Positions 3,635 to 30,180 of a stretch of 30,506 nt of DNA are shown one piece after another (the first letter of the stretch is position 1; each line of letters begins with the position of its first letter). Source of the stretch: Spirogloea muscicola (taxonomy: Eukaryota > Streptophyta > Zygnematophyceae > Spirogloeales > Spirogloeaceae); NCBI GenBank assembly GCA_009602725.1, contig WELB01000022.1, forward strand, positions 913,971 to 944,476, given 5' to 3'. Position numbers and translations under genes: made by a program. The notes beneath the pieces were generated by a model. It was not told where the DNA came from. It worked only from the letters and a program-made list of their open reading frames with translations, and did no database searches.

Positions 3635-6365
3635 TCATCTATGTGCTGGGGATGGCCTAGCAGGGGTGACGACTGTCACCTGGAACACAGCAAGCGCCTG
3701 CCGGACGTCCTCCTCGGAGATGTGATGATGCGTGACCAAACGTATCCTGCAACCGGTGTGCCGCGAGCAAGCAGGGAGTGAAGGTGGCTTTGTAAGTGAC
3801 TCTGCACCAGTCCAACAACTTCTGGAGGTACTAGTGCAACTGTCTGAAATCGAGCGCGTACAGTGTGTTCCTTAATGAGCTAGGTGGAGAGGGCTTCTCC
3901 AGTAAGTATGTATAACAACAACTAAGTCCTCTTTCTATACCTGGTTGTATTGTGCACAAATGTATGGGTGCACTACGGAAATGAGAAACCAAATAGCCAG
4001 CAATAAGAGCACTGCTGACTGAAGGACAATCAGTCTCCCGTGTGTGGCATCTGCTGCGCCAGCAATACCTAGAGCGTCCCACGGCGCACACAAGAATGCC
4101 TGCTTGCTTCACTGCCTCGCACAGCTCGTTCACGCCCATAGGGCACTCTGCCGTCACGTCTACGTGAACCTGCGGCATGCCACGACATGCGAGGTAAGCT
4201 ATCCCGCTAACGTCCAATTGTAATGTACAGCCATGTGTAGAAGGACAAAGATTAGATTGAGGCTCAGGATGGAAGACTTGCAATGTTGGTCTCAATGATG
4301 GCGAGGTCCACCCACAGGCCGTCCATGGCGTTCAGACCCTCTTAAGATACCCACAGGGACGGCACAGCGAGCACATCAAGGATCAGGAAAGTGATGGCCA
4401 AGGAGCTGGGAGAAGAGAGCGCATGCCAGGCCACCAAGTGATTGCTGCCACTTCTTGATGTTCATGCAAGACAATTTCCTTCATAAGATCGTGTAAAGCA
4501 AGAAGCTGCTTGACTCGTAGCAGCCAGCTCCAAGTCCTGAGCACTATATTCACCGGCAAGTTTCTGAGCATTTCTGTGATCGGTGCCCAGTCTTCCCACC
4601 ATGTCGTTGATGGAGATCAGCCCCGCCGCGGCCACAACTCCCACTTGCCGCATGCCGCCACCCAGTGCCTTCCTCAGCCTCTTTGCCTGAGGCGTAAGTA
4701 CACAAGTATTACACTTTGATAATTATCTTTTGGGCCGAGGTGGTCCTCGGACGGAGGGGCAAAATGGAGAGGGACACAGGAGGATCGAGAGCCGCTGTCA
4801 TACCTCGGCTACAAAAGCAGCCGTCCCAACAACGACGCTGCCAAGGGGCGCTCCCAAACCTTTTGAAAGGCAGACCTGTGGACAAGTTGGACGCTAGCCT
4901 CACAGCCGCAACTGCAACTAGTTGCATGGCTATGTTGGTACTGTTGTTTCAGAAGGCCGAACACAAAGGTAAAGCTGCCTGGCGGGCCAAGTTAAGGACT
5001 GAGCTTGCGCAGCTAACCGAGATGCTGTCTGCGGCCTTCACTAGCCTTTCTGGAGCCACACTCAAGGCCTGCACAAAGACGACGCCCAGCACGTATCACT
5101 GAGGCAGTCAATGCTCTTTACCACAGACCAGGAGCTGAGGAACCAGAGCAAATTAGACGCCCAACTGAGCTCAGGCAAAGCGCTCAAAGGCCAATTCTTA
5201 GTGAAGGAATGAGTACAGTGTGACCACAAAATTAGAGCATCGGCGGCTCACGGTGGCCGCGTTGAACAGCCGAGCACCGTCCACGTGCAGCTTGAGGCCG
5301 TAGTACTTGGCCAGCTCGCCGAGTCGGTTGGTGTACTCGGCGGATATGGCACGGCCGCCGCAGCGGTTGTGTGTGTTCTCGATGCAGATGACGCGGGTGA
5401 TGGGGAAGTGCTCATCGCCTGGCGGCCGGATGGCGGCCTCCACCTTCTTCAGGTCCATGGTGCCGTCAGCCTTATTGGGCACAGTGCGCGAGTGCACGCC
5501 ACCGAGCGTCGCGATGCCGCCCTGCTCGTACCAGTGGATATGCGACTCGGACCCCAGGATTGCCTCACTGCCCCGCAGCTGCGCACAGTACCAAGATCCA
5601 TGTCTTGTGTGAGCTTAGCACTGTGAGGCAACAGAGCTGACTATTGGCTGGGTGCATCACTTCCGCAGCTCTTGTTAAGTAGCCCGATGCCGCAGCTTAC
5701 CATGTCGATGCGATAAAAAGGACATATGAAGGCTACGAAGGCCTATATCTGGCACCCTGGTGGTGTTACATTGAGCCCAGGCTGTAGTATTGGCTGACTA
5801 ACTTTCCAGTTTGTTGACATACCTCCTATCCATTTCAGTTTATATTATCTTGTGTTGCTTTCGAGGCTATTTGAGCCTTATCCAGCTAAAGATAGTGGGG
5901 TCGAAAGTTGTGGGGTTTGAGATCCGCCTGGGCACCTGGCAGTGGACGAGGACGCAGATGAGGTTGCCCATGGTGCCGCTGGGCACGAAGAGGCCCGCCT
6001 CCTTGCCCAAGACCTCGGCGACCCGCCTCTGCAGGCGGTCGGTGGTGGGGTCTGCTCCCAGCACATCGTCGTCCACCTCGGCGCCGGCCATGGCCTCCCT
6101 CATCGCCACTGCAGCGAGGCACCGGCTGAGCTGACCTCAGACCCTCCGCTCTCAGCTGCAAGATCACATTGATGGCAGCTGCTGAGAAGCTCAGTGGGTG
6201 GGCGTAATGGTGACCTGTTGGCTTGGTAACGGTGTCAGAGCGCAGGTCCACGATGCGGTCCGCGGGCAGCGGTGGACGCCCGGGCGGCCGGCGGTGGCCA
6301 CTGGACCTACTGCGGGCCTTGTGTGCGGCACCGTTCTCAGCGGCTGCCACGTAGTCGAGCTCCAT
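3635..6365 (-). CDS. Threonine aldolase (PLP-dependent, low-specificity L-threonine/allo-threonine type)
   Basis: Nine exons: complement(3635-3746, 4069-4169, 4282-4340, 4554-4686, 4804-4875, 5018-5068, 5252-5578, 5936-6108, 6215-6365), 392 aa, every junction in phase. The enzyme cleaves threonine to glycine and acetaldehyde in the fold-type I PLP family. Visible hallmarks in order: [13 protein letters not shown] near the N-terminus; [15 protein letters not shown] and [30 protein letters not shown], with the PLP-pyridine Asp; and [10 protein letters not shown], with the PLP-binding Lys, split after the upstream exon ADSIS. The C-terminal part has [17 protein letters not shown] and [14 protein letters not shown]. 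The start is the ATG at 6365, about 30 residues before DLRSD; there is no clear targeting peptide. The intron between 4282 and 4169 begins GC (ATT then GCAAGT) and is required for the frame ETNI-VHVDV. The last 14 residues after AVFQ could instead be altered by a further intron. Confidence 0.92.
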
Positions 6366-6792
6366 GGTTGCGCTCGCAGCAGTGAAGAAGACGAGACTGA
6401 TGCAAAGCCCAAGACAGTAGATCTGAGCTTCAAGCCCTGGTCTCCACTAAGCTGAGCGCCATCGTTGCTGCGTCCATGGCTGTAGCTTCTCCTGTTGAGA
6501 GGCAGCGCCGCTCTCAGGGCTCCTTGCTCGCAGCTTTCGCCTTCGTCCAGACACCCGCCGCCTGCGGCAAACGGCTGGCTTTCCACAGAGGGATGCGGCC
6601 GCTGCAGTGAGGAAGCAGAAGTGGCGGCACAGCGAGCTGCTGTGGCAGCGCCCACTTGCAGCTGCCCAAGGAACTGTGGGAGGAGCTGGCCACCAGAAAT
6701 AAGTGAGAGGCCGGCCCACAGAGAACTACGAGGTCTGCGCAGAAAGCAGGAAATCAGTCTCCAAGACGTCAGCAAATCGACGCATAATAATC
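6366..6792. other. Upstream flank of threonine aldolase, no gene seen
   Basis: This stretch should hold the aldolase promoter. No credible coding exon. A partial copy of the dispersed repeat (gtgagaggccggccca) is at about 6694-6710. The mobile-element-like inverted repeat starts directly after this stretch. Confidence 0.4.
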
Positions 6793-6972
6793 TCTAATGA
6801 CGCACATCACCCTCTGCATATTGACCCGCTCAGTAACCACGGGTCAATACATAATCGATGCATCGATACATAATCGTTGCTAATCGATGCCGAAGGGGGC
6901 GGGGGTTGGTGAATAGAAAGGAAAAAACGAATGCGGCTGCTGATATTAAAAGCAGCTCTCCAAGTTGACAGC

Positions 6973-7030
6973 AGTGGCTGTGTGAGAGGCCAGCCCAAAA
7001 GGAATGAACAAGGTCCAAACGAAGGGCCAA
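6973..7030 (-). repeat. Dispersed repeat copy (GGGCTGGCCTCTCACAGCC family)
   Basis: Contains GGCTGTGTGAGAGGCCAGCC followed by AAAAGGAATGAACAAGGTCC. It is the reverse complement of the plus-oriented copies at 7612-7672 and 12494-12575. Confidence 0.6.
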
Positions 7031-7079
7031 AAGGCGCCAATGCCACACAGCTATGCAAGAGACTACAGGAAGTGGGAGC

Positions 7080-7253
7080 TCAGTAATCCCAAGTCAGCAG
7101 GCGCATGTCGGAGTAAGCTGCAGCTGGAAAAGAGGCACCCCGACAAGACCCAGAAGCAACAGCCACGGCACAGCCTGCCCGCAAGTGCACTACTTGAGCC
7201 TGGGACCATTGGAAGGATATGGATAGCCGCATGCGGATCACCTGGGCAAGCGA
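7080..7253 (-). pseudogene. Left inverted copy of a decayed coding segment in the element
   Basis: Read on the minus strand, this segment encodes a stretch ending ...HLRAGCAVAVASG...SFPAAAYSDMRLLTWDY-stop. The plus-strand segment 7352-7527 encodes the parallel sequence ...HLRAGRALAAASG...SFPAASLSDLRLLTRDY-stop. The two DNA copies are roughly two-thirds identical, with many differences at third codon positions, so the ancestor was probably translated. I do not recognise the family. Confidence 0.5.
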
Positions 7254-7351
7254 CAGGGCAACTATAGCCGGGCAGCTCACCTTGCTGGCCAGGCTTGCGC
7301 GGCGCGCTGTGTCCCGCAGGCGTGGTGAGCCGGCTGACTTCAACGCCGCTG

Positions 7352-7527
7352 GCTCGTGGGCTCAGGTATATCGTATGCGATTGTCGGTCTCCCTTCAGCA
7401 GTCCATGGCCCACGCCTTGCATCTGCGTGCTGGCCGTGCTCTCGCTGCAGCCTCCGGCTTTCGTCAGGGGGATAGTTTTCCGGCAGCTAGTCTGTCGGAT
7501 TTGAGGCTCCTCACTCGTGACTACTGA
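7352..7527 (+). pseudogene. Right inverted copy of the same decayed coding segment
   Basis: This is the mirror copy of 7080-7253, oriented outward on the plus strand and ending at TGA 7525-7527 with LRLLTRDY. A continuous frame runs from about 7219. Neither copy has a convincing start or enough length to be a complete gene. They look like fragments of an older protein-coding element captured between the terminal repeats. Confidence 0.45.
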
Positions 7528-7611
7528 GTGGTCCATCCTCCCCCGTTCTGACATAGCATCTTGAGGCCCCTTCGTAGCTGCTTAGCGCTTTAGGCCCATC
7601 CGTCATTCGGC

Positions 7612-7672
7612 TCCTTTCGAACCTTTGTCAATTCATTTCGGGCTGGCTTTTCACAGCCCTTGCCCCCATTGG
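7612..7672 (+). repeat. Dispersed repeat copy
   Basis: Contains TTGTCAATTCATTTCGGGCT then GGCTTTTCACAGCCCTTGCC. It matches the copy in a ribophorin intron (12494-12575) and is inverted relative to 6973-7030. Confidence 0.6.
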
Positions 7673-7802
7673 GAGAGCCACTTCTTCTTATCGGAAGGGG
7701 ACGGGGGACGATGGACCAAAAGCTGTTCGCAGCGTGCTCAGGCTCTGGCCAGGGGACCCGCTTCCAGGAGCCCAGCTTCTCTGACCCGAGGCTGCTTAGC
7801 AG

Positions 7803-7862
7803 CAAGCGCGGCCAGATTAACTGGTGGCTGGGAGAGGCCAGCCCAAAAGAATGGACAGGGGT
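7803..7862 (-). repeat. Dispersed repeat copy
   Basis: Contains GCGCGGCCAGATTAACTGGT then GGCTGGGAGAGGCCAGCCCA and AAAGAATGGACAGG. It carries both halves of the family consensus and links the fragment at 9990-10016 to it. Confidence 0.6.
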
Positions 7863-8512
7863 TACTGAGTGCAGGGGTTACTAAGTGCTTTGTAGCTGCT
7901 TAATTTCTTGCTGTGCTTGTTTCCCTTAGCGCTTCCCCTGGCCCCCTTCTCTTATTGTCGTTCTTTTTTTTGGGGCTCGCTTTTCCAGCCCCTATCCTCA
8001 ATGGGCGAGCCCTTCTTCTTCAGGCTAATGCTTTGCACCAGACAGCTGGGCGAGCTCTAGTTGATGGAAGCGCTGTTGTTTGTTAGTTGGTGGCAGAAGG
8101 GCTTCGAATCTGCCATCTGGTTTTCAGGCATCGATTAGCGACCTTTATGTATTGACCCGTGGTTACTGAGCAGGTCAATCTGCCGCTGAGCAGATCAATC
8201 TGCTCAGTGATCACCCTCGTGCACTGCCGACGTACATCACCCTCGTGCACTGAGCAGATCAATCTGCCGCGGTGATGTACGTCGTTAGAAGTGCTTGCCT
8301 TTGTACGTAGGCCTTTGACCTTGGTTAGATTAAATACACGAAAATTTCCTCAAAGGAGGACCACAAAGAGTGCTAGGTGGGCCATCGCCTGGCTGCATCG
8401 GCTGCAGCAGCGCGCCGTGGTGGCGGCATCACGAGACGCGCCGCCCTGCCCGTGGCGGCGACCCCGTGGCGCATGAAGGCGGCGGCTGCAATCGACAGCT
8501 GGGGTGGGCGAC

Positions 8513-9013
8513 ATGGTCATCCGTTGCCCCACGCCGTGTCTGCGCCCTCGCTCTGGCAAAGACTTCCACAGCGGCCTGGCTGACTTCCACGCTGCTGGCA
8601 TTGACGACACCATCTGACACGAGGCTTGCTGCTTGCGGGCTGGTCGCGACGGAGAAGACGCGGAGGGCTTCGAGGCGCCCAGCTTGCGCACATTGGACGC
8701 GCAACCGCTTCCATCTGAGGACGCGAGACCAGCTCCCCTTCCCAAGTACGAGGGCGGCGGGGAGCAGCTTGCAGGTCTCGGCGCCGGGAAGTCAAAGAGC
8801 CGGAAGCAGCGGCTTGAGGGGAGGCCGGAAGCAGCGCTCAACAAAGGGCGGGGCCGGGAGGACACGATTGGCATGCTGCGCGAGCTCATGGGCGTCGACG
8901 ACGTCGCCGACGAGGGCAAGCAGCAGCAGGCGCCGCTGGGCGGCGAGTGGCTCGACCCCCACTGCAACGAGTCGCATTTTGAGCGGCCGTTGCCACGCGG
9001 CGGAGAACAATGA
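8513..9013 (+). CDS. Unidentified protein, frame open except one internal TGA; C-terminal WLDPHCNESHFE motif
   Basis: One frame reads from ATG 8513 (MVIRCPTPCLRPRSGKDF...) to a TGA at 8615-8617. It then continues open (HEACCLRAGRDGEDAEGF...) to TGA 9011-9013. The downstream part is protein-like: charged and hydrophilic, with KSKSRKQRLEG, a predicted helix EDTIGMLRELMGVDDVADEG and a C-terminus GGEWLDPHCNESHFERPLPR. I do not recognise the family. The internal TGA may be removed by an intron I cannot place, may mark a pseudogene, or (least likely) may be recoded. The true start is uncertain. A long opposite-strand frame here is judged a shadow because its composition is less protein-like. Confidence 0.45.
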
Positions 9014-10200
9014 CAGTGTTGTGCAGGCGGCAAGTTCTTCGCATGCTGACAGAATGCAGCAAGTGACTTCCCTTGCGAATGGTGCAAGGCGACTGCCGCC
9101 ATGCATGGTGCCAAGGGCTACCAGCAGTCAAGTGTACCTGCAGACTCCAAGATGTAGCGCTGACCCTTGCTGTGGACGGCCATTGTAGGCTACAAGAAGC
9201 GGCATGTACGTACTCCGACTTCAAGACCACCAATACCAATTCCCCAGCTCTCCCGCTCCTGCCCGATCAAACACACATAAGAGGGCTAGTCTACAAAATT
9301 ATGGTAGTGGGGGTACAATTGCAAGCTCAATAGAGGAGTAGAGGGAAGGGAGATGGTGTTTGAAGGAGGAGAGGGCTAGGAGAGTGGCTCCACCGGGGTG
9401 GCAAAGGCAGTGAATGGCCACCAACGTCGGGCGGTAAGGCACCACAAGGTCCAAGGGGCTGAAGGTTGGAAAGAAGGCCAACAATCGGTGCGAGCAGCTT
9501 CGCTGTGCTTGTGCTTGTAGACCACTGTAAGACAGCCAGAGAGCAAACAGCCTGGAGGAGTGCGTGAAGAAGGAGCCGCCATGGTGTGTGCACGTTGCTG
9601 CAGCTAGGCGACGGGCCCGTTCGGAGTGCCAAGGGGTTGGCTTGGGGCTGCCAGAGGAAGGCCAGGCACGCTGGCTACCACCATACTGTGCCTATGCGAA
9701 GTGAAGCATCGCTTCGTGTTGTCAAAGTAGTACACAGGCCGGCGGAAAGAAGAGAGCTCTCTTGAAGATTTCTTAAAGATGGGCAATGGCTATCAAAGCC
9801 CAGCCCAAACATGAATGGACAAAGCTCAAAGGAGCTTGAAAGCACAATCCTTTACATCTCCTAGTTTCTGGCTAGAATAAATGGCCTGGAAAGGCCTGGA
9901 AAGGCTTGGCAGGGATGGTCACGTGTGCAAACTGCTTGCCCAATGCCTAGAGTTTGACATGATATGGCCAGATCGCCTGAGCCCTACAACCCACCAGTTA
10001 ATCTGGCCGCGCTTGCGTGTACCACCCGATGCATCCACAGTCGCCGTGCGGGCCGGCTAACGGGGCTGCCGTAATGAGATTGTATGCCGTTAGCGCCGAC
10101 AGGTGCAGAGCGTGACGGTGCCATGACTGCCGTCCGATGACGGCCGTGACGGGGCCGTTGCGCGGGCTTGACACACTGTTATGGAGCTCGGTTAGGACCT
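9014..10200. other. Gene-poor region with dispersed-repeat fragments
   Basis: No convincing coding exon. Repeat-family fragments occur at about 9792-9830 (CCCAGCCCAAACATGAATGG) and 9990-10016 (CACCAGTTAATCTGGCCGCG). The stretch 9320-9480 is purine-biased. The last 200 bases presumably include the ribophorin promoter, and a (CCG)n run follows at about 10228-10254. Confidence 0.45.
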
Positions 10201-10429
10201 AACATATCCGGCCCCCCTGGCCAGTGCTGCCGCCGCCGCCGCCGCCGCCGCCGCATCGAAGCGCTTCAGCCTCGTCGAAGCAAGGCCCGGCCAAGGGCCC
10301 CCGCAATGGCGCCCGCGGCCCCTCGACGTGCGTGCGGCAGCTCAGCCCCACCGCAGCCAACGCCGGCAGAGCCTCCGGCTGCTTTCCTTCCTCGAAAGGC
10401 CTGCGCGTCGTCAGCGAGGCTCGCGCGCC

Positions 10430-13400
10430 ATGGCGGTCGAGCTCAGGCCGCGGCTGCCTGCCCTCGCTGCGCGCAGGCTGGCGGGCCGCCTGCCTCCTGG
10501 CGCTGGCCGCGCTCCTCAGCCTCGCCGCCGCCGGCTGCGGCGAGCAGCTCCTCCTAGGTGACGCAGACGTCAAGCGGGAGCTGAAGAAGCTGTACACCGT
10601 CAAGAAGAACGGCTCTTATGGCAGGTGAACGGTCATGTGCTCGCATTCTCAGCTGCCCCAGCTTGACGCACAACTCCAGATCACAATGGTCAATGGATGT
10701 AAGGTGCGGAGCGTCGTATCGACGGCAAGGTAATAATGGCAATGTGAGCGTCCTCTGGCTCTGTCCTTGAGCTCGTTCACCTGACCGGGGCCTCGCTCCT
10801 CTCACTTCCGCAGCTTGAAGGCAACGTACCAGGCTGTGCAAGCAATTGCCATTCTCGGCTCGGGCCCCTCGAACCCGGACACGTGCTCCTTCGCTGAAGG
10901 GGCGGACACTCCTGATGCAGCTTCGGCGTACTTTGCCTTGGGAACAGCAGCCATCCTGCGCTGCAGCGGTGCTAAGGATGTTGCTGAGGTACGCAGTCTG
11001 TCAAGCATTCACAGCGTCCAGGGCCACACAGGGAGCTGCTGCCTGTGATCTCACTTCAGGAGAACGAGCGCTTCAATAGGGAACCTACTTCACGACTGAA
11101 TGCCTCAATGGCAACCTCGAACCAGTCCAAGCCCGAATCTGTCATCAGTACATTCACGACTGAATGCCTCCATGGCAACCTCAAACCAGGCCAAGCCCGA
11201 GTCTACTCAAGTACACTGGTCATAGCTATTTGTGCCGTGTGCCAAGGAGGGGATGCATTCTATTCCCCATCATCTGTGGCCAGATGCTGTGGCAGGTTGC
11301 CGCATGAGGGCATGCTGGGTAGGTCCAACTGACTTACTTGCAGTCTGGCTTCTACAGAAAGTTTTGCCCATTTTCCTCGACATAATCAAGTCCTCTGACG
11401 ATCTTATACCTTTGATGCACTCACTAAATGGGTTGTGTATGATGAAGGTAAGCCCATCAGAGCAACCTGGAGCATATCTGAGTAGATTTTACTGCCTTTT
11501 CAAGAGGGGAGAGGGGTTACTGGTTTTGTGGGAAGGGGCTATCGGTCAGAGAGATCTAAATCCAGCAAGTTTTGTAGTTGTTACCTGGGTCGCCGCATTG
11601 CTGGACATCAAGGGAAGGGATATGGGATGTTGTTGCTGGCCCTGTGATGAAGCAATCTATATACGCTAATCGGAGCTGACCACAGCACTGAAGACCTCAG
11701 TCAATGCTTTGTCCTGAGGGCCAGTAGCAAAGTGTATGCTGCGATGCTGCAGTTCTTTTGGTTTGTGCTACATTGAGGTTGATCTTTTGCCACATGGCCA
11801 TGAGTTTATCGAAGAGTGCCATTGACTAGCATGCACCGTGTGCAGGACTTCATGCTGAGGAAAGTAGAAGTTGATGAAGCTCTTATCAAGTCAGTTCCCA
11901 AGAAATTGAAGGTAATTCTGACAAGAGTAGGTTCTTGTCGAACACGGTGGCCGTGTATGTCTTGATCTAGAGGCCAGTGGAAGATGAGCAAGAGCAAAAG
12001 CTCTTCAAAATCTAGAGGAGAAGATAGTAACCTGAATCAGGTGCAGGATTTGGCAGGCTCTTGCTGCAAATGGCGGCACTTGGAAGATGTCTGCATCTGA
12101 CTCAACGCCAACTCTGCTTAAAGCAGGTTCGCTGACTTCCCAAGAGCTCCGTCCTGTGAGATTTGAGTGGTAGTAAATGGCATTCTTCATGAGACCTTGA
12201 GACTAGGCTTTCTTCCTGCAAAATAAGCTCTGTGGCTTCAACGCTATCGGTTCTGCTTGCAGGATGGGCTCTCCAAGCTTTCACCTCATGTGGTCGCCTG
12301 GGCACTTTCAATGTCCCTGAGGTGACTGCGGCAACAAAATTGCACGGCATTGGTGTATCAGTTTGCCGCCACCACTCAAACAGGAGGCTTAATGCATAAC
12401 TTTGGCCGCGAATGCTTGCAGTTGGAATTCTTTAAAGAGGCCATCACCACGGCATTTGCTTCAACATCATCAAGTGGTGTGCTCAAGCCTCCATTCGGCT
12501 CCTTCAGACCTTGTCCATTCCTTTGGGCTGGCCTCTCACAGCCACCAGTCAATCTGGCAGCGCCTTCTCCCATCATTGCTCTGACTCATCAGCAGTGCTT
12601 TAGACCCTCAGAATAGGGGTCAGGGTTGCGCTTGGCTCAAGAGCTCAAATCTGGAGTCAAGTGCGTATGATTGATCTCCTATCTAAACGAAAGCGTGTCT
12701 TGCTCTCAACTGATAGAGGATGGGGAGGTTTACTTTGATGACCCGGATGGTGAGATGTTTGCGACGTCGGTTGTCCTCATGTCTTACATACAATTGGCTA
12801 CATACTACTCTCATGTTCCGAAGGTGCGCCGTGGGCTAGGGCTGCATGTCTTGTACCTGGAATGCTGCATGCATACTTCCTCTGCTTCTCTAGATGTCTT
12901 TCCTCTGTGTGCTGCAGGTAGTTTTTGCTTGCCTTACCAACTCTCACTCACTTTGTAAGTAAAGAGCCTGTAAGTGCCGCTCTGTTTGTCACCCAGCTCT
13001 CAATGTCTCCACTGGCATCTCACAAGACATTGCTTACGATTGACAGGTAGAACCGAAGAAGATTCTCGGAATAGCAAAGTACTTTCACAGCTTGGGCTTC
13101 CCTACGGGAGCCAAGGAATGTCTGTACATGATTGAAGCATTACAAACTCTCAGCGAGAACAGGCACGGCTGCACCTCATTGGCAGTCCGTGGTAGCTTGA
13201 GGCTGGTGTCCTCCTCATGGCTGTTGTCGCACTCAGTGCTTGCATGCCTTCATGTCAGTCAACCAGGTCCTGATTGGCTTTGAGTGCTCATCAGAACAAC
13301 CTCGAAAGCTGAAGCTGCTCCTGTGGTCTGCTTGGTCTTTGCAGCATAATCGTACCTGTGCTTTTAACAGTGCCACCCAGTGTGTCAATCACTACCGGTA

Positions 13401-16051
13401 AACTCAAGGTGAGCTTTTGTTTCTTGTGTAGACAAACACAGTTCACCACGATGTCATTTGTATTGAGAACTGTATGTCGAGCCACGATGGTCCTTAAGCT
13501 CGGCTGCTCATCTCCTCACTGATCGCCCTCCACAGGTATCGGTCACTAACGCGCTTGGTTTGAAAGTTCCTCTGCACAATGTCAAGTTGTTTGGGATAAA
13601 GCCGCTCTTGAGTGGAAAGACGGCGTCAGTCAGCGAGGTATTGGCAGAATGAATGCTTTTTATGATCTTGGTGCTAAGTATGTCTTTGACATCATGCTCT
13701 CCCTGATTACACACAGAAGGGATGGTCATCAACATCTTCTGCATGCTTTGTCAACTCGCAGGACTTTGTCCCTGGCTTACAAGAACCGACTGTCTTTCTT
13801 GGGGAATTTCCCAAGAAGGGGACAATACTTGGAAAGTACTTGCTCAAATTTGAGGTGCGTCACAAGCTTTTAGACATAGAGAATCTGCTTCAGCCGCTCC
13901 TGAGAGCGTGTTGAGGATGGGAATGTATAGCACTTCCTGGAACTTTGGTGGAAAAGCTACTTGAAGAGTACTTCTGTGTAGACATACACAACCACAAGCG
14001 AACATGCAATTGCAGGTAATGCCAGCTAGCAATGAGCACAGCAAGTTCTATGCTGGCACGATATCGGAGACTGTGATGGTGACGGGGGCCGTGGCTGCAT
14101 CCGATGCCAAGCTGATTCTGCTGGACAGTGATGGGTCTGTCAACATGGAGAATGTGTAAGCTCACTGTGTCACCTGCAAGCTGGACTGGACTGTACACTG
14201 CCCTGTAGATAGTATTGGATATTGCAGTAAGGTCATGATTGTACACTCTTGAGCAGAATGATTTTTTAATGGCGAAATGGAGGAAAATGAGTGCTCGTTT
14301 GTCCACTGTCACCTGACACGCTTGACTAGCCTTGCCTCACCGTTTACTCTTCTTATATGTCACTGGTAGACTGGAGTATGGCAAGTCCACACCAGTGAGC
14401 ATCTCTGCCACACACCTACAGAAGTTGCACTTCTCCGTGAAGCTCACTGGGCCAGACGAGCAGCCCTTCATCCCTCAGCAGGTCTTGTCTCTTACAACTA
14501 GAGGAACAATCCTCTAGTTGTACCTCGTCATGCACATACATTTGTGTGCATGTCCATACTCTTGCTTGCTCCTTGACAGTGTAGCTTTTGTGAAAGCCCA
14601 GATCTTGCAAAGTTTCCAAGCATATCTGTTGGTCGAATGCAGGCCTTCATTAAGCTGGAGCACACAAGTGGGACATCCCATCTATATCTACTCGGCTTCA
14701 ATCAAGAGCAGGGCACATTTGGCTTCCAACTGGTGCGTTTGAATACCTGCAGCCCCCTCGTACAGGCTTGCTTCGTGCACAAATGATGCATGTGTTACTG
14801 ACGATGTGAATAGCAAGAAAAGAGCTGTGGTACATCTGTGGTAAGCCTTTTGCTCGCATGCTGTGTAGGACTTCTTGGAACTCATGAAAAGCCTGTACCA
14901 TCTCTCTGGTGACTACACGCTTGAGCTACATGTTGGCGACAATGCAATGGCAAGATCTGCTGCTGAGTCCTTCAGCTGATCTGTGGACTGTCAGCGAGGG
15001 AGTGGGAATGGCACTCTCTTATGCACTGATTCCTCCAATTGGCAATACTCATACTCACACGTTGCCCATGGAGACTCTTGTCATCAACTGAAATCTCAGA
15101 CCTAAGCTTGTCTTCAGGATGGCCAACATCACTTCCACGTAAGACGTACTAAGCTCTGGTCCTCACTGCCTTGCAGGACAATCCATTTACGTGGCCCCTT
15201 GCGGTCCTCTCGCTGGAACTACCAGCTCCTCCAGATGGTTCCGCAAAGCCTCCTGCTCTTGTGACAGATCTGAAGCAGCGCTACGGGCCCAAGGCAGAAA
15301 TTAGCCACATCTTTCGAGTGCCTGAAAAGAGGCCTCCACGCATTGTTTCTTACGTCTTTATGATACTCACTCTTGTCCCACTCGTGGGCTTGCTTGGCGG
15401 GGTAAGTAGTATCTTACCAGCTTTAGTCTTGCCAGCAGGTGTTACTCAACAGACCCACTGCCTTTTTGTTGAATTTCGCAATGGAGCATGCAGAGTCATG
15501 AAGATACCATGAAGTACATGGTGCCACTGCATTTGTGACACTTGGGCACTTCTTTCTTTTCTTCCAGCTGCGGGCTTTAGGCAGTAACGTGGCTTTGTTC
15601 CCGAATGAGGGAGGACCCTCTGTGGGTGCGGTGCTCTTTCATGCCGGCATTGCAGCAATATTGCTTCTCTATATTGCTTTCTGGATCAAGGTAAGAACAC
15701 CCTGAACCCGCGGCAGAAGAGTCCATCACATCTAAGGTTGCACTGCTCCGCATTATTGTCTGCCTTCCTTCACACTAAGCTGAAGTTGTGAATATGGCTT
15801 ATGCAGTCTTTTTCTGTATGGGTGAACAGCACTGCTTGTCAAACACGAACACTCATTCACCAGTGTGCAGGACTACAACCATAAGCACCTCAGTATGTGG
15901 AGAGCAATCTTTATGCTGACAGCTGTTGGTGCAGGTGGGGCTGTTTACGACCTTGAAGCTGCTCCTCCCACTGGGTCTATTCACTTCTGCAGCAGGTTTC
16001 CGCATCCTCTCACATCTTGCTGACTCTTCCGTGAAGCTCAAGGGCACATAG
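10430..16051 (+). CDS. RPN2: Ribophorin II, oligosaccharyltransferase subunit (RPN2/Swp1 family)
   Basis: A non-catalytic ER-membrane subunit of the oligosaccharyltransferase complex for N-glycosylation. Exons: start unresolved-10624, 10814-10988, 11358-11447, 11846-11911, possible micro-exon 11971-11987, 12047-12126, 12263-12321, 12719-12823, 13047-13162, 13345-13408, 13536-13637, 13762-13854, 14016-14155, 14370-14481, 14643-14732, 14869-14949, 15177-15401, 15568-15690, 15935-16051 (TAG). All are in phase, about 680 aa, the family's usual size. Support: a signal-peptide-like LLALAALLSLAAAG; LKATYQAVQAIAILG; VSVTNALGLKVPLHNVKLF; the C-terminal block HIFRVPEKRPPRIVSY followed by TM segments VFMILTLVPLVGLLGG, AVLFHAGIAAILLLYIAFW and TLKLLLPLGLFTSAAGF. 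Introns at 13163 and 14950 begin GC. Exons between 11846 and 12321 are less certain. The signal-peptide frame has no ATG; the nearby ATG 10430 is in another frame. Confidence 0.88.
11091..11218. repeat. Tandem duplication, 2 x 64 bp, in a ribophorin II intron
   Basis: CACGACTGAATGCCTC begins both units (11091 and 11155). The copies differ by several substitutions and lie within the intron 10989-11357. Confidence 0.85.
12494..12575 (+). repeat. Dispersed repeat copy inside a ribophorin II intron
   Basis: Contains CCTTGTCCATTCCTTTGGGC, then TGGCCTCTCACAGCCACCAG and TCAATCTGGCAGCGCC. This is the fullest plus-oriented copy of the repeat also found at 6973, 7612, 7803, 9792, 9990 and 19630. Confidence 0.65.
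14493..14522. repeat. Perfect 12-bp-arm hairpin just inside a ribophorin intron
   Basis: TACAACTAGAGG (14493-14504) and CCTCTAGTTGTA (14511-14522) are perfect inverted repeats with a 6-base spacer. They start 12 bases after the donor at 14482. Confidence 0.85.
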
Positions 16052-16345
16052 ACTAATTGATTGTGAAAATTTCCACGTTACACCTAGATTGTCTACAATT
16101 GCACTACTTCCTCATAAGCCCCTTATGCCTCTAAAGAGTGGACGGGCTTTACGCCCATCGGTAGGCCTACAGCAGCTCATCGAGAGCCAAAGAGCCTGTG
16201 CTCATGCGAGCCTCTAGAGAGCCAGGTTCAAAATCTATTTTTGCTAAGCAAGCACTGGCACTGAAGTTTCAAAGGCTACCGACCTTGCTGAGGCAAGTGG
16301 CTGTATCTTCCCAATGGCACTTGTTAGAGAGGCAGTCAGTCACAG
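16052..16345. other. Tail-to-tail intergenic region between RPN2 and PDS
   Basis: No coding sequence. TTACA at 16078-16082 is TGTAA on the minus strand, a candidate poly(A) signal for phytoene desaturase, about 265 bases past its stop. Confidence 0.45.
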
Positions 16346-19835
<3,490 letters not shown>

Positions 19836-20337
19836 TGTCACTCTTGAACATATAGCGTTGACCGGTAGCACTGCCACGGCATTCTGGCAGCGACGTTCTA
19901 GGACACCAGTCAGGGGCTAAACACCCTTCAAAGAAGGGCACTTGGCCACCCTCACCAGTTCAAGAGAGGATCTTTGGCCTTCCGCAAGGCGGGCCATGGG
20001 CCGAACCGCTCACCCTCCTGGAGGGAGGGTAGCACGGGGAAGCACAAAGAGCCTTGGGGCTGAGGCTCGACAGGATTTCGAACCGGGGATGCCCAGGAGC
20101 AGCCTTGCTGCTGCTCGCCGCCGCAACCGCCGCTGCACTCTGCTGCGGGGCCTGCTGCGCCAGCCTGCGCCCAGGAGGTGGAGTCACCGCCGGACGGCGG
20201 CGCCACAAGGCCCGTCTTCCGCTGCGCCGATGCGCTAGTGCTTTGCCTGTGTAGTGGGTTGATCCTTAAGACCCATACAGCCGAACTCAACAAGGACTGC
20301 TCACCCTAATTGCGTGTGTAGGGCGAGATTCCTTACA
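19836..20337 (+). mobile_element. Putative 5' LTR of a retrotransposon
   Basis: The right boundary is supported by TTACA, one base, then a tRNA primer-binding site at 20339. The left boundary at TGTCACTC (19836) is a guess from the TG...CA rule and from TGTCA/TTACA being imperfect inverted ends. No second LTR is in the window to confirm it. Confidence 0.4.
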
Positions 20338-20338
20338 G

Positions 20339-20350
20339 TGGTATCAGAGG
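20339..20350 (+). other. Primer-binding site for initiator tRNA-Met
   Basis: TGGTATCAGAGG matches 11 of 12 bases of the usual plant LTR-retrotransposon PBS complementary to the 3' end of initiator tRNA-Met. It lies one base after the putative LTR end and upstream of a gag-like frame on the same strand. Confidence 0.75.
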
Positions 20351-20791
20351 AGGTCTTGCATCCATCGCGCTTGTGACGTATTGTGCTCGATGATGCAAGA
20401 ATCACCCTGATGTGCTTGCCTGACCTTTTCTGTAGAAAATGAAGTGCTTGCCAAACGTTGGTCCGTGAGGCGGCTCAATGGAAGCGCCGGGTGCAGAGTC
20501 ATCTTTGCGCAGTAAGCCAGCAACGACCAACGCCACTTAGACCGACTTATCCTTGAAGATCACTTGCTGCGTTCGCTTCTCTTGAGGTGTGGCTTGAGCT
20601 TGTGTGGCTGCAGCCTTTGTGTAGTAAGGTCAGTCGTGTGGCCAGCATTGACAGTGTGCATCGGTCTTGGTCACATCTGTGGGTGTCTGCCTGCCTGCTT
20701 TTGGAGGTGTAAGGTTGCGCGCTGCCCTGCTTGCTCGCTCGCTGCTGCAGTAGTCTTGCGATGTCCTTTATTGCTGTATAGATAGTGTAAT
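20351..20791. other. Untranslated leader between PBS and gag
   Basis: No coding sequence seen. Position and strand fit the leader of an LTR retrotransposon. Confidence 0.4.
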
Positions 20792-21418
20792 ATGCTGCCT
20801 GTTGAACCTGACTTGATCTCTCAGTGTTCCTCAGGCAGCATGGAGTCGCACACATCTAGTGGGCCTCCTAGCCCTCCTCGGGAGGTAGAGCGGTCGGCTG
20901 CTGAGGTAGCCGCTGCTGCGGAGCCAGCTGCTGCGGCAGAGCTGCTGCGGGGCAAGCCCTTGAGGGGCACGCCGAGCTGGGAGCCGAAGGCCACAAGGGC
21001 TTGTCGGCTGGGGAGGTGCAGCGCATGGCCCTCCTCACGCAGGATTTGTCAGCAGCCCAGACTACCGCGGACTCAGCTCACCACTGGCCTCTTTGCGAGG
21101 ATCTGCGCGGAGCAACGCGCCCTACTCGTCCGGCAGCGCCTCGAAGAGCGGCATATGCAAGAGGTGGATGCCTCGTTGCACTTGATGAGCAAGAGCAGTG
21201 GCCACCCTGAGCATGAACTTGCCAGGGCCCATGCACCCAAACAATTCTCCGGTCAGGATGATTGGGGAGGGTTGCAGTCATGGCTCGACGAGATGGTCGA
21301 ATGGTTTGTGTGTTCGAACACGGACGCGGGGACACGCGTGCGCCTCGCTGCGACCTACGTCGCAGGGGAGCCACGGGAGTGGTGGAATACCCTGAAGCAG
21401 GGCAAGCTGCCCGACGAG
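20792..21418 (+). CDS. Retrotransposon Gag-like protein, 3' end cut at an assembly N
   Basis: The frame opens at ATG 20792, with an alternative ATG at 20840 before MESHTSSGPPSPPREVE. It has an Ala/Pro-rich N-terminal part and a helix (RQRLEERHMQEVDASLHLM). A typical Ty3-type Gag retrotransposon domain follows: PKQFSGQDDWGGLQSWLDEM, VEWFVCSNTDAGTRVRLAAT and YVAGEPREWWNTL. It packages element RNA. No zinc knuckle, protease, reverse transcriptase or integrase follows, because the sequence passes a single N at 21419 and becomes an ABC1K exon. The frame happens to stay open across the N, so automatic predictors will make a chimeric protein; that fusion is not credible. Confidence 0.75.
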
Positions 21419-21419
21419 N
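21419..21419. other. Single N, probable collapsed assembly gap
   Basis: One undetermined base separates the gag sequence from GC-rich coding sequence of an unrelated ABC1K gene. Loss of the rest of the retrotransposon and of the kinase 5' end at the same point suggests the N hides a larger gap or misjoin. Confidence 0.7.
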
Positions 21420-24400
21420 CGGGCCTGGCCCCGCTCGGCAAGGCCGCGCCGGCGGCGGGGGCCCCGGCCAAGGCCACAATCGCGCGGCAGCTGGCGCAGG
21501 CGCAGGGCGGCGGCGCCATGGAGGAACTCGAGCTCGCGCGCGGCGTCTGCAACCCCTTCCGCAAGTACAGCCCTGGCGCGGTGCGCGCGCGCGTGATGCA
21601 GCTCCCCGGCGCGGCGCTGTCGGTGGCCGGGCGCGGCGCCGAGATCCTGGCGTCGCTCGGGTGGTACTGGGCGGGCCTCTCGTGCGACTACCTCCTCGGC
21701 CGCTCCGAGGCCATGCTCTGCGTGCGCGCCGCGCAGCTCCGCTCCCTCCTCTGCCGCCTCGGCCCCTCTTTCATCAAGGCCGGCCAGGTGGGCGCCCACC
21801 TGCCCTGCTGATGGAGCAACCCATCAAGACTAACGATGAATTGAATCTGCCTCGCAGCCAATCATGCATTGCATGTATGATTGCTAATGGGCCTCCTAAG
21901 TCTTGGAGCAAACCATATTCTGCTCGAGAGCTTGTGTTCGGGCGGTCTGAGTAGCCACAGCGGCGGCGCGTCCGCAGGTCCTGGCGAACCGGCCGGACAT
22001 CGTCCGCGAGGACTTCATGAACGAGCTCTGCGTGCTCCAGGACGACGTCCCCGCCTTCTCCAGCAAGGCGAGCTGCAACCCCCCAGAGCTTTCTCCCGTT
22101 GCCGCCTCCTGCGCTGCAGTGTCGCAGGGCCGGCGGTGCTGACGGCGCTTGCCTCCGCTCTGTGCTGCCGCCGGCAGGTGGCCTTTGAGATCATCGAGGC
22201 GGAGATCGGGCGGCCTCTGGAGACGGTGTTCAGCCGCATCTCCGTGGAGCCGGTGGCTGCCGCCAGCCTCGGGCAGGTGTACCGCGCGACGCTCCGGGGC
22301 TCCGGCGAGGAGGTGGCCATCAAGGTCCAGCGGCCGGGCATCGAGCCGATCATCTACCGGGACCTCCTCCTCTTCCGCCTCCTCGCCTCGTTCCTCAACG
22401 GCGTCTCGCTGCGCAAGCTCGGCTGCAATGCCGAGCTCATCGTTGACGAGTTTGGCGAGAAGCTGCTCGAGGAGCTGGACTACACGCTGGTGCGCTCCTC
22501 CTTTCTCCCACGCCTCTCCCTGACCCATCTCTACCATCCTATTTCTCCTGCTATATCCTGACGCTCGCTTTGCAGACGCGGTCACGTCACCGTCGTGTTT
22601 TACCACCCACGACCCCCTCGCCGTCTTTGCTGGCTACAGAGCTGTCATAGTCTACATAGAATTGTCATTTTAGAAATTTGTTAGTCGTTTGAGCTCGACT
22701 GACTCGAGATTGAGTGTGAGCTCGACTGACTCGAGATTGAGGTGCATGACATAACACAAGGGCATGGACTGACTCCTACTTGGCTTACTCCAGGAGGCGC
22801 GCAATATTGAGGACTTCTATGAGAACTTCCGCAATGACCCGACCGTCAAGATCCCCCTCGTCTACAAGGGCCTCAGCGGGCCCACTGTGCTCGTCATGGA
22901 ATGGATTGACGGCATCCGCTGCACAGAGCCCCAGGTACGGTCATGGGAGTCCCCACTTCTCTTCCTTGGGCACTGTGATGCTGTTGAGCTAGGCGTAGTC
23001 CGTAATGCATGTGATCAAGCAGCAGCTCTTACAATCAAACTGTGCTACCCCTCTTATGTAATCTGCGCCGACAGTCTCCGGCAGCATCGCAGCAATCATT
23101 TTATCATCTTATTCTTGGTCTTAATTGTCTTTGGCAAATCTGGGCACAGGCTATAAAAGACGCGGGCCTTGACGTGAAGGCATTCATCACCGTGGGCGTG
23201 AGTGCCGCGCTGCGGCAGCTCCTTGAGTTTGGGCTCTTCCATGGCGACCCCCACCCCGGCAACATCTTCGCCATGCGCGACGGTCGCATCGCATATGTTG
23301 ACTTTGGCAACGTCGCCGAGCTCAGTCAGGTCAGTGCCAGGGCCCAAGACGCCTTACTTGGCTGGCTTCCTGCACCAGTTCCTTTTTGATTTGTGTTGCA
23401 TGAGTATGTATGACATGAGGTCAGGTGAGTTGTGTTGCATGACTATGGTGACATGAGGTCAGGTGAGTGGCCAGTGCCATTTAAGGCTCAGGCTGATATT
23501 GGCGCCCCGCTTGATTGGGGTTTGAGCTGCAAACGTAGGGGTTGTAATCTAATTGGGTGTAGGAGGCCGAGTCCTTGAGGTACTGGATCTCCTGTAATCT
23601 GCATGTGATTGACCCCTCCTTGACCTGCTCGGCGCGGGCACTGTGCATGCAGTACAACAAGCAGATCTTGATCGACGCCATCGTGCACGCGGTCAACGAG
23701 GACTACAGCGAGATGGCGGGCGACTTCACGCGGCTTGGATTCCTGGCCCCTGGCACAGACGTCACGCCCATTGTCCCTGCCCTGGAGGCCATCTGGCAAA
23801 ACTCAACCGACAAGGGCCTCGCTGACTTCAACTTTCGCTCGGTCACAGGCATGTCCTCGCACACCTCACATTGGCCATTCCCTACAGTCTCACGCCAAAA
23901 TTCAACATGAGCGGTGGTCGGCATCTTCGTCAACGAGTTCTTGCCTTGTTGATTGATATAGTATACATAGATATATGTGTTGTGATTGCACCTTGAGTAC
24001 ACGTTAATCTCCTCAAAATGCCCACGATTTTCCAGGCAAGTTCAATCAGCTTGTGTACCAGTACCCCATCCGCATTCCAGAGCGCTTTTCGCTGGTCATC
24101 CGGTCGCTGCTGACGCAGGAGGGCATCTGCCTCACGCTTCAGCCTGACTTCAAGTTTCTCGAGGTTAGACTTTCAATTCCTCACAGCCTGCAGGCAGTCA
24201 GCACATGGGATCCTCTAGGAGCGAGGAAAACCACCTTCATGTTGACAGCTCCTCAGCTACTTGTCTTGTGCAGGTTGCATATCCGTATGTGGCGAAGAGG
24301 CTCTTGACTGACCCTGACCCAGCCCTGCGGGAGCGCCTCTTGCAGGTATTTGACATTTTATCGGCAGATTCATAGCAATTTGTGAACAATTCTCAAATAG

Positions 24401-29352: not shown

Positions 29353-30180
29353 TCAAGCCATGCGCTGTTGCTGGGGCGGGTAGGTGACGGTGTGGGTGCC
29401 ACCATCAAAGGCGGCGTGCCAGGGATCATGGCCACGGTACTTCAGCTCGCGGTACTCCTGGCACAGTGCGCACGGCATGCAGAGCCAGTGCACGCAGGCG
29501 TCGCCACACGGCTGCTCCGGCAGCCCGAACTTATGGCGCAGCCGCGTGCGGTAGGTGCACGAGTAGATGCACGCGCACTGCGTGAGCGCCCCCAGCAGGT
29601 ACCACAGCGCGGCGGCCGTGGGCCACGTCGTGCGGCCGCCGTCGATGGCGTCCGCCGCGAGGCCGAACGTGATGCAGGGCGCCCAGTAGGTCAGGCAGCA
29701 CACCGGGACGTCGTCGCAGCACGCGAGCAGGCCCGTCGTCCACTCGCCGCGCCGACTCACTCCTGCGGCTCCAACAACGAACGTCAGCGGCGGAGGCCCG
29801 GGCCCTCTGGCCCTGAAGCTGAGCTGACTTTCCAGGCGCTGCCGCGACGGCAACGACGCATGTCACTGGCTGCAGGGCGGTCGCTCGGCCGCCATGAAAG
29901 CCTCACCTTGGCGCCACTGCGGCGGCGGCGGCGGCTGCCCGTGCTGGTACGACCCATACGCCTCCTCCACCTTCCGAGGCACGTAGAAGTGGCTGGCCAG
30001 TCAGTGCCCGGCACAGCGACGGAGGCCTGGCGTTGGGGCTCCAGGCCCGCGCCACTGGCGACGGAGGCGCGAGGGAAGGCGGAGGAGGGGACGCACCGGC
30101 GGCGGGAAAGTGGGGTGATGGGCGGGGGCGCCGCCCGCCAGCAGCGGCTGCCGGTCGTCGGCAGGAGCGCCGGCGCCCAT
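29353..30180 (-). CDS. PLAC8-family cysteine-rich membrane protein (cell number regulator/PCR type)
   Basis: Exons: complement(29353-29762, 29907-29992) plus a probable first exon from ATG 30180 to about 30095. The family occurs in plants as PLANT CADMIUM RESISTANCE and cell-number-regulator proteins, which are plasma-membrane proteins linked to metal transport or organ size. Seen: a proline-rich lead (HGQPPPPPPQWR), the domain start GEWTTGLLACCDD, the hallmark VCCLTYWAPCITFGLAADAI, a hydrophobic stretch LWYLLGALTQCACIY, then LRHKFGLPEQPCGDACVHWL and CMPCALCQEYRELKYRG. All conserved Cys and the CQE-REL motif are present. The tentative first exon reads MGAGAPADDRQPLLAGGAP. A GT donor at 30096 leaves the wrong phase, whereas a GC donor two bases further on (30094) gives a consistent 193-aa protein. 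I regard that junction as unproven. Confidence 0.85.

Follow-up and report, generated by a model that had tools for sequence, protein, structure and literature searches.

Introns with GC donors in a contig of the alga Spirogloea muscicola and a probably raised share of GC-AG introns

Algal genomes rich in GC-AG introns have been surveyed, reportedly by Iwata and Gotoh. GC-AG introns account for 1.3% of introns overall, with shares of 39.6% in Aureococcus, 22.2% in Micromonas pusilla and 7.7% in Chlorella sp., and a high share has been tied to high genomic G+C, yet the correlation was otherwise weak (PMC3033335). Plants average 1.2% (PMC6310983), and a share under 1% is given together with descriptions of donor compensation and of switching between GT and GC (PMC2490688). 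A variant U1 was suggested for the GA-AG introns of Eurytemora affinis (PMC7072748). Here, we describe GC donors in a 30,506 nucleotide stretch of Spirogloea muscicola DNA (GCA_009602725.1, WELB01000022.1:913,971-944,476; labelled G000:C22:913971-944476, from an assembly of 153 Mb), referred to as the window. It includes genes for threonine aldolase (THA), ribophorin II (RPN2), phytoene desaturase (PDS) and an ABC1-type kinase (ABC1K). Four introns in the window are confirmed by sequence comparison as having GC donors, and the GC-AG share in S. muscicola is probably raised, nearer 5% than 12%.

GC donors in the window

The gene families were supported by Pfam matches, with four ribophorin II domains in RPN2 along with Beta_elim_lyase, ABC1 and Amino_oxidase. 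The sole PDB match to PDS was a rice protein, and the top matches to ABC1K among bacterial genomes were cyanobacterial. Junctions were examined by aligning the window DNA to external proteins with a purpose-written spliced aligner, and by comparison with two further copies of the region, B (on C102) and C (on C96). The references for the copy comparison were draft proteins from the window itself, which makes it circular for the window copy; the independent support therefore comes from copies B and C and from the external-protein alignments.

The introns with donors at PDS 18236, RPN2 14950, ABC1K 22068 and ABC1K 23849 (Table 1) were confirmed by homologous proteins and the two diverged copies, and all four were recovered with external proteins. 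The rice homologue runs across the PDS junction without a gap, and cyanobacterial ABC1K joins gaplessly across both ABC1K junctions. At RPN2 14950, GDNAM/DNPFTW (the slash marks the junction) corresponds to human GDATL-KNPILW. The exon ends there are identical in the window, B and C, and the donor carries a point difference at +2, GC in the first and GT in the other two. In each case a GC donor and an AG acceptor join conserved coding sequence in frame, and splicing at the GC sites would be expected in vivo.

Table 1. Positions in the window of introns with GC donors and of two tentative GC donors
Intron	Positions	Strand	Donor	State in copies and other evidence	Grade
PDS, GC-AG	18014..18236	-	CAG/GCACTG at 18236	GC in 3/3 copies; gapless against rice protein	confirmed
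ABC1K, GC-AG	22068..22177	+	AAG/GCGAGC	GC in 3/3 copies; cyanobacterial ABC1K profile	confirmed
ABC1K, GC-AG	23849..24035	+	CAG/GCATGT	GC in 3/3 copies; cyanobacterial ABC1K profile	confirmed
RPN2, GC-AG in window	14950..15176	+	ATG/GCAAGA	GT-AG in B and C	confirmed
THA, GC-AG	4170..4281	-	ATT/GCAAGT at 4281	GC in 3/3 copies	well supported
RPN2, GC-AG	13163..13344	+	CAG/GCACGG	GC in 3/3 copies	probable
RPN2, tentative GC donor	11988..12046	+		preceding mini-exon without consistent splice sites in B and C	not established
PLAC8, tentative GC donor (30094)	30090..30100	-		plain GT donor CCG/GTGCGT two bases away	not established

A sequence-only reading of the window had listed these six GC-donor introns and the two tentative ones. 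The positions and letters of the six donors are as it gave them, and four of its introns are those confirmed above. The fifth, THA 4281, is well supported as a GC-AG intron on the strength of the copies and of the joined ETNI/VHVDV, which resembles DTNMLFVRV of E. coli LtaE by eye. Counting against it, the PDB matches end before the site, one spliced alignment to external proteins missed it, and alignment to LtaE, for which the C-terminal part of THA is too divergent, scored control dinucleotides as high as GC. Another external alignment did recover the site, only at the lower threshold of 1.0 per residue per flank.

The sixth, RPN2 13163, is probably a GC-AG intron. A GT donor 29 bases downstream (13192), with an acceptor ending at 13370, is also in frame, and the two forms tie in Pfam (29.0 bits for GC against 29.3). 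The human reference also failed to recover the site in external-protein alignments. By eye, the GC form is a somewhat better fit to human RPN2, with VPV in common. An S-I change across the three copies was considered as evidence for the GC splice and set aside, as both candidate exon stretches carry similar change counts and the change is therefore not decisive.

Neither tentative donor could be established. For RPN2 11988 the splice sites of the mini-exon are inconsistent between copies, though the Pfam score is slightly higher with its residues (57.4 bits) than without them (56.0). The GT donor sequence beside PLAC8 30094 is present in the window and in copy C, and there was no match in copy B.

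Intron models for the four genes (THA 8, RPN2 17, PDS 5, ABC1K 11) total 41, a set that excludes a non-consensus intron at 10493 and the RPN2 11988 mini-exon. In these models 35 donors are GT and six are GC, giving a GC-AG share for the four genes of 4-6/41 (10-15%).

GC-AG share outside the window

The share was estimated outside the window from 30 loci (six CCT subunits, two Cpn60, eight HSP70-like, five FtsH, four tRNA synthetases and five EF-G/LepA-like) with reference proteins taken from the PDB or from E. coli. Spliced alignment with all donors permitted yielded many spurious introns in divergent regions, which is why filters on the flanks, the requirement of a YAG acceptor and 14 controls were introduced. 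Each run permitted GT plus one other dinucleotide, with the 14 dinucleotides besides GT and GC as controls. Introns were considered confident when both flanks had a mean BLOSUM62 score of at least 2.0 per residue, there was no gap near the junction, the acceptor was YAG and the length was 60-1000.

Outside the window there were 145 GT and eight GC confident introns (8/153, 5.2%, 95% confidence interval 2.3-10.0), well above the share of about 1.2% in plants, while the control dinucleotides gave a mean of 0.86 and a maximum of 2 under the same filter. The excess was seen at other flank thresholds, with 11 GC introns against a control mean of 3.21 at 1.0, 10 against 2.07 at 1.5 and six against 0.43 at 2.5. 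When the YAG rule was dropped (window included), 11 GC introns were found compared with seven for AG, the highest control. The same external-protein filter applied to the window returned 10 GT and three GC introns with a control mean of 0.43 at 2.0, and 17 GT and six GC (one of them a noise site) with a control mean of 0.86 at 1.0. The sequence-only reading had put the share at about 12% (six of about 48 introns); the rise stands, and 12% is probably a local high.

Six poorly matching loci (L019, L020, L117, L122, L142 and L144) contributed at most a few confident introns and are still counted in the sample, while L031, a TCP1-domain protein that is presumably FAB1-like, was dropped. GC candidates below the 2.0 threshold at L027 3999, L117 1846 and L122 6962, and one in the window RPN2 (index 188), were judged to be noise. 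An HSP70 site (L016 3975) is rejected by the gap filter and so falls outside the eight; the comparisons of donor strength and of homeologous copies below include it.

Donor strength, copy comparison and rival explanations

The GC donors are very probably those of ordinary U2-type GC-AG introns, recognized by a spliceosome with canonical U1 and U6 and present at a share (about 5%, range 2-10%) several-fold that of most plants and animals. Such donors would arise through a single T-to-C change at +2. The mismatch could be borne where the remaining donor positions pair well enough with U1, and most GC donors would then persist. The GC share would be set by mutation and tolerated compensation and not by any special function, with T to C as the presumed direction of change and U1 recognition presumably unaltered.

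The state of the donor was compared across copies at 11 sites, namely the six in the window (THA 4281 and RPN2 13163 included) and five outside, which do not include the two sites in CCT3 or the one in LepA. GC was found in every copy examined at 9/11 sites, including those in CCT2 (2/2 copies), CCT6 (3/3), FtsH (2/2) and ValS (3/3). The other two were mixed: RPN2 14950, and the HSP70 L016 site with GC in two copies and GT in one. A pair of LepA-like paralogues also has an intron at the same place (FSYE/VSRS), the donor being GT in one paralogue and GC in its partner, so that switching between GT and GC at corresponding introns is seen at RPN2, HSP70 and LepA. No GT donor among the 41 window introns had a GC counterpart in B or C, with ABC1K 21788 and RPN2 11912 not cleanly modelled in C.

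Donor strength was scored as the number of matches to the U1-complementary consensus at seven positions, with +1 and +2 excluded. The 14 GC donors, THA 4281 and RPN2 13163 among them, averaged 4.79/7 compared with a mean of 3.80 across 219 GT donors (permutation p = 0.0002). The gain lay mainly at +3 to +6 (2.64 against 1.80) and was small in the exon (2.14 against 2.00). The excess was retained with the doubtful outside site described below added (15 sites, p = 0.0007) and with only the eight sites that passed the filter (p = 0.015). The donors GCACGG, GCACTG and GCGAGC had been considered weak by normal standards, and each of the three still has CAG or AAG at the end of the exon.

Several points weigh against this explanation. 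The G+C of the 321 kb of S. muscicola DNA read (window included) is 55.5%, and 49.7% in introns, so the very high genomic G+C associated with, though not strictly defining, GC-AG-rich genomes is not found here; because this is below the published GC-AG-rich species, high G+C alone is insufficient to account for the share. Some GC donors, such as CAG/GCACTG, lack the G at +5. The sample is small and skewed to chaperone, FtsH, elongation-factor and tRNA-synthetase genes, and one of its eight GC sites, L120 6183, is doubtful and was judged to be noise yet kept in 8/153 (7/152 without it). Finally, the U1 scan scored 41/2433 candidates and a variant U1 could therefore have escaped.

It is unlikely that a moderate-G+C algal lineage has shifted its GT/GC balance several-fold via another component of the spliceosome (e.g. 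U1-70K, Prp8, Luc7-like proteins or a minor U1 isoform), with the three copies showing turnover in progress. The relaxed U1 recognition or modified splice code proposed from the sequence alone, in which GC donors build up because an altered U1 or spliceosomal protein tolerates C at +2, has only a small probability. The share above the plant average, the moderate G+C and the PDS donor without +5 G are in its favour. However, the 5′ end is canonical (ATACTTACCTGG) in both complete U1 genes found, the one U6 copy read (of seven U6 matches in total) contains ACAGAGA, and U1C reads YYCDYCDTYLTHDS, a normal first half of the zinc finger with the remainder in further exons. A third U1 match, which falls short of the family cut-off, retains CTTACCTGG and is missing its first bases and 3′ part, and none of the three U1 matches from the 41/2433 candidates scored has an altered pairing stretch. 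A search with the PF09785 profile was uninformative, with no match in G000 or in the controls. The GC donors are also compensated, which relaxed recognition would not require, and other non-GT donors show no comparable rise in the control runs. Canonical U1, U6 and U1C together with compensated donors fit ordinary U1 recognition and speak against a relaxed splice code.

That the window is a chance high in a genome with a share of about 1-2%, as in most plants, is similarly improbable. The window share is the higher (6/41 against 8/153, Fisher p = 0.08; 5/41 against 7/152, p = 0.14), a difference that is not significant. Several genes, e.g. CCT4, CCT1, CCT7 and one Cpn60, have no GC intron, and the lower bound of the confidence interval is 1.9-2.3%. 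Against this, the count outside the window is well over the controls, and seven or more of 152 would be expected with a probability of 0.003 at a rate of 1.2%. At a rate of 7.7% the probability of seven or fewer is 0.09, so the outside share is not significantly different from that figure. Wrong gene models or sequencing errors mimicking GC donors are highly improbable despite the two tentative sites, the ambiguity at RPN2 13163 and the missing external-protein decision at THA 4281, as homologous proteins back four window sites and sequencing error is rejected because two or three separate contigs carry the same GC at 9/11 sites.

Genome copies, repeats and relation to other algae

Identity to the window is 82-91% in the main aligned pieces of copy B and 85-95% in those of copy C, except that copy C reaches 97.7% across window positions 6077-12494. 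Such a mosaic hints at gene conversion, or at recombination among the copies of the genome. Many of the genes searched, RPN2 included, have two to four diverged copies on different contigs, and some are single (the genes searched included HSP70, CCT, FtsH and tRNA synthetases). It is as if about three genomes were present in one assembly, whether triploid, hybrid or phased. Cpn60-type matches at G000:C20:955790-958468 and G000:C97:46373-46552 sit in long open frames of 1053 and 2658 aa, respectively, which are unusual in this intron-rich genome, and the second match is weak (E = 6.4e-4).

About 75 bases at 12495-12569, inside an RPN2 intron, are missing from copies B and C and contain the motif CTGGCYTYTCACAGCC, which has 10 further matches in the S. 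muscicola DNA read. For these reasons the stretch probably represents the insertion of a short mobile repeat into the intron. The same motif directly follows a partial U1-like copy at L003 1501-1634 (G000:C55:60697-60830), in which the first bases and 3′ part are missing. A retroelement-like stretch at approximately 20330-21420 abuts the first ABC1K exon and includes a single N at 21419, and either the assembly or the start of the ABC1K gene may be disturbed there. It has a TGGTATCAGAGG motif and what we take to be a gag-like frame.

Chlorella belongs to the Trebouxiophyceae. A literature search for GC-AG introns in the Trebouxiophyceae returned no paper, though Chlorella is covered in PMC3033335. 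The excess over a usual rate of about 1% in most eukaryotes, on which the sequence-only reading relied, is borne out in direction; its comparison omits algae with 7.7-39.6% GC-AG introns (PMC3033335). Raised shares of this kind are thus already published for other algae, and S. muscicola is one more GC-AG-rich alga, at lower G+C. Like those algae it has a share several-fold over the 1.3% average, here estimated by homology rather than from transcripts, unlike the published figures; its G+C of 55.5% in 321 kb compares with 69.5% in Aureococcus and 65.9% in M. pusilla, with Chlorella between (PMC3033335). With the U2-type GC-AG introns of mammals and plants it shares donors that are nearer the U1 consensus at positions other than +2, and GT/GC switching at the same intron (PMC2490688, PMC6310983), while its share of about 5% differs from the under 1% and 1.2% reported there. 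Eurytemora affinis is alike in having a raised share of a non-GT donor, a reason to inspect U1 (PMC7072748), but its donors are GA, whereas in S. muscicola they are GC, other non-GT donors are not comparably raised and the three U1 matches show no altered pairing stretch.

In practice, gene finders that accept only GT would break approximately one in 20 introns in S. muscicola. The roughly three copies of many genes, about 12% apart, make up an internal orthologous donor set in which GT/GC turnover could be measured against U1 pairing. The findings also suggest that a raised GC-AG share is possible without high G+C.

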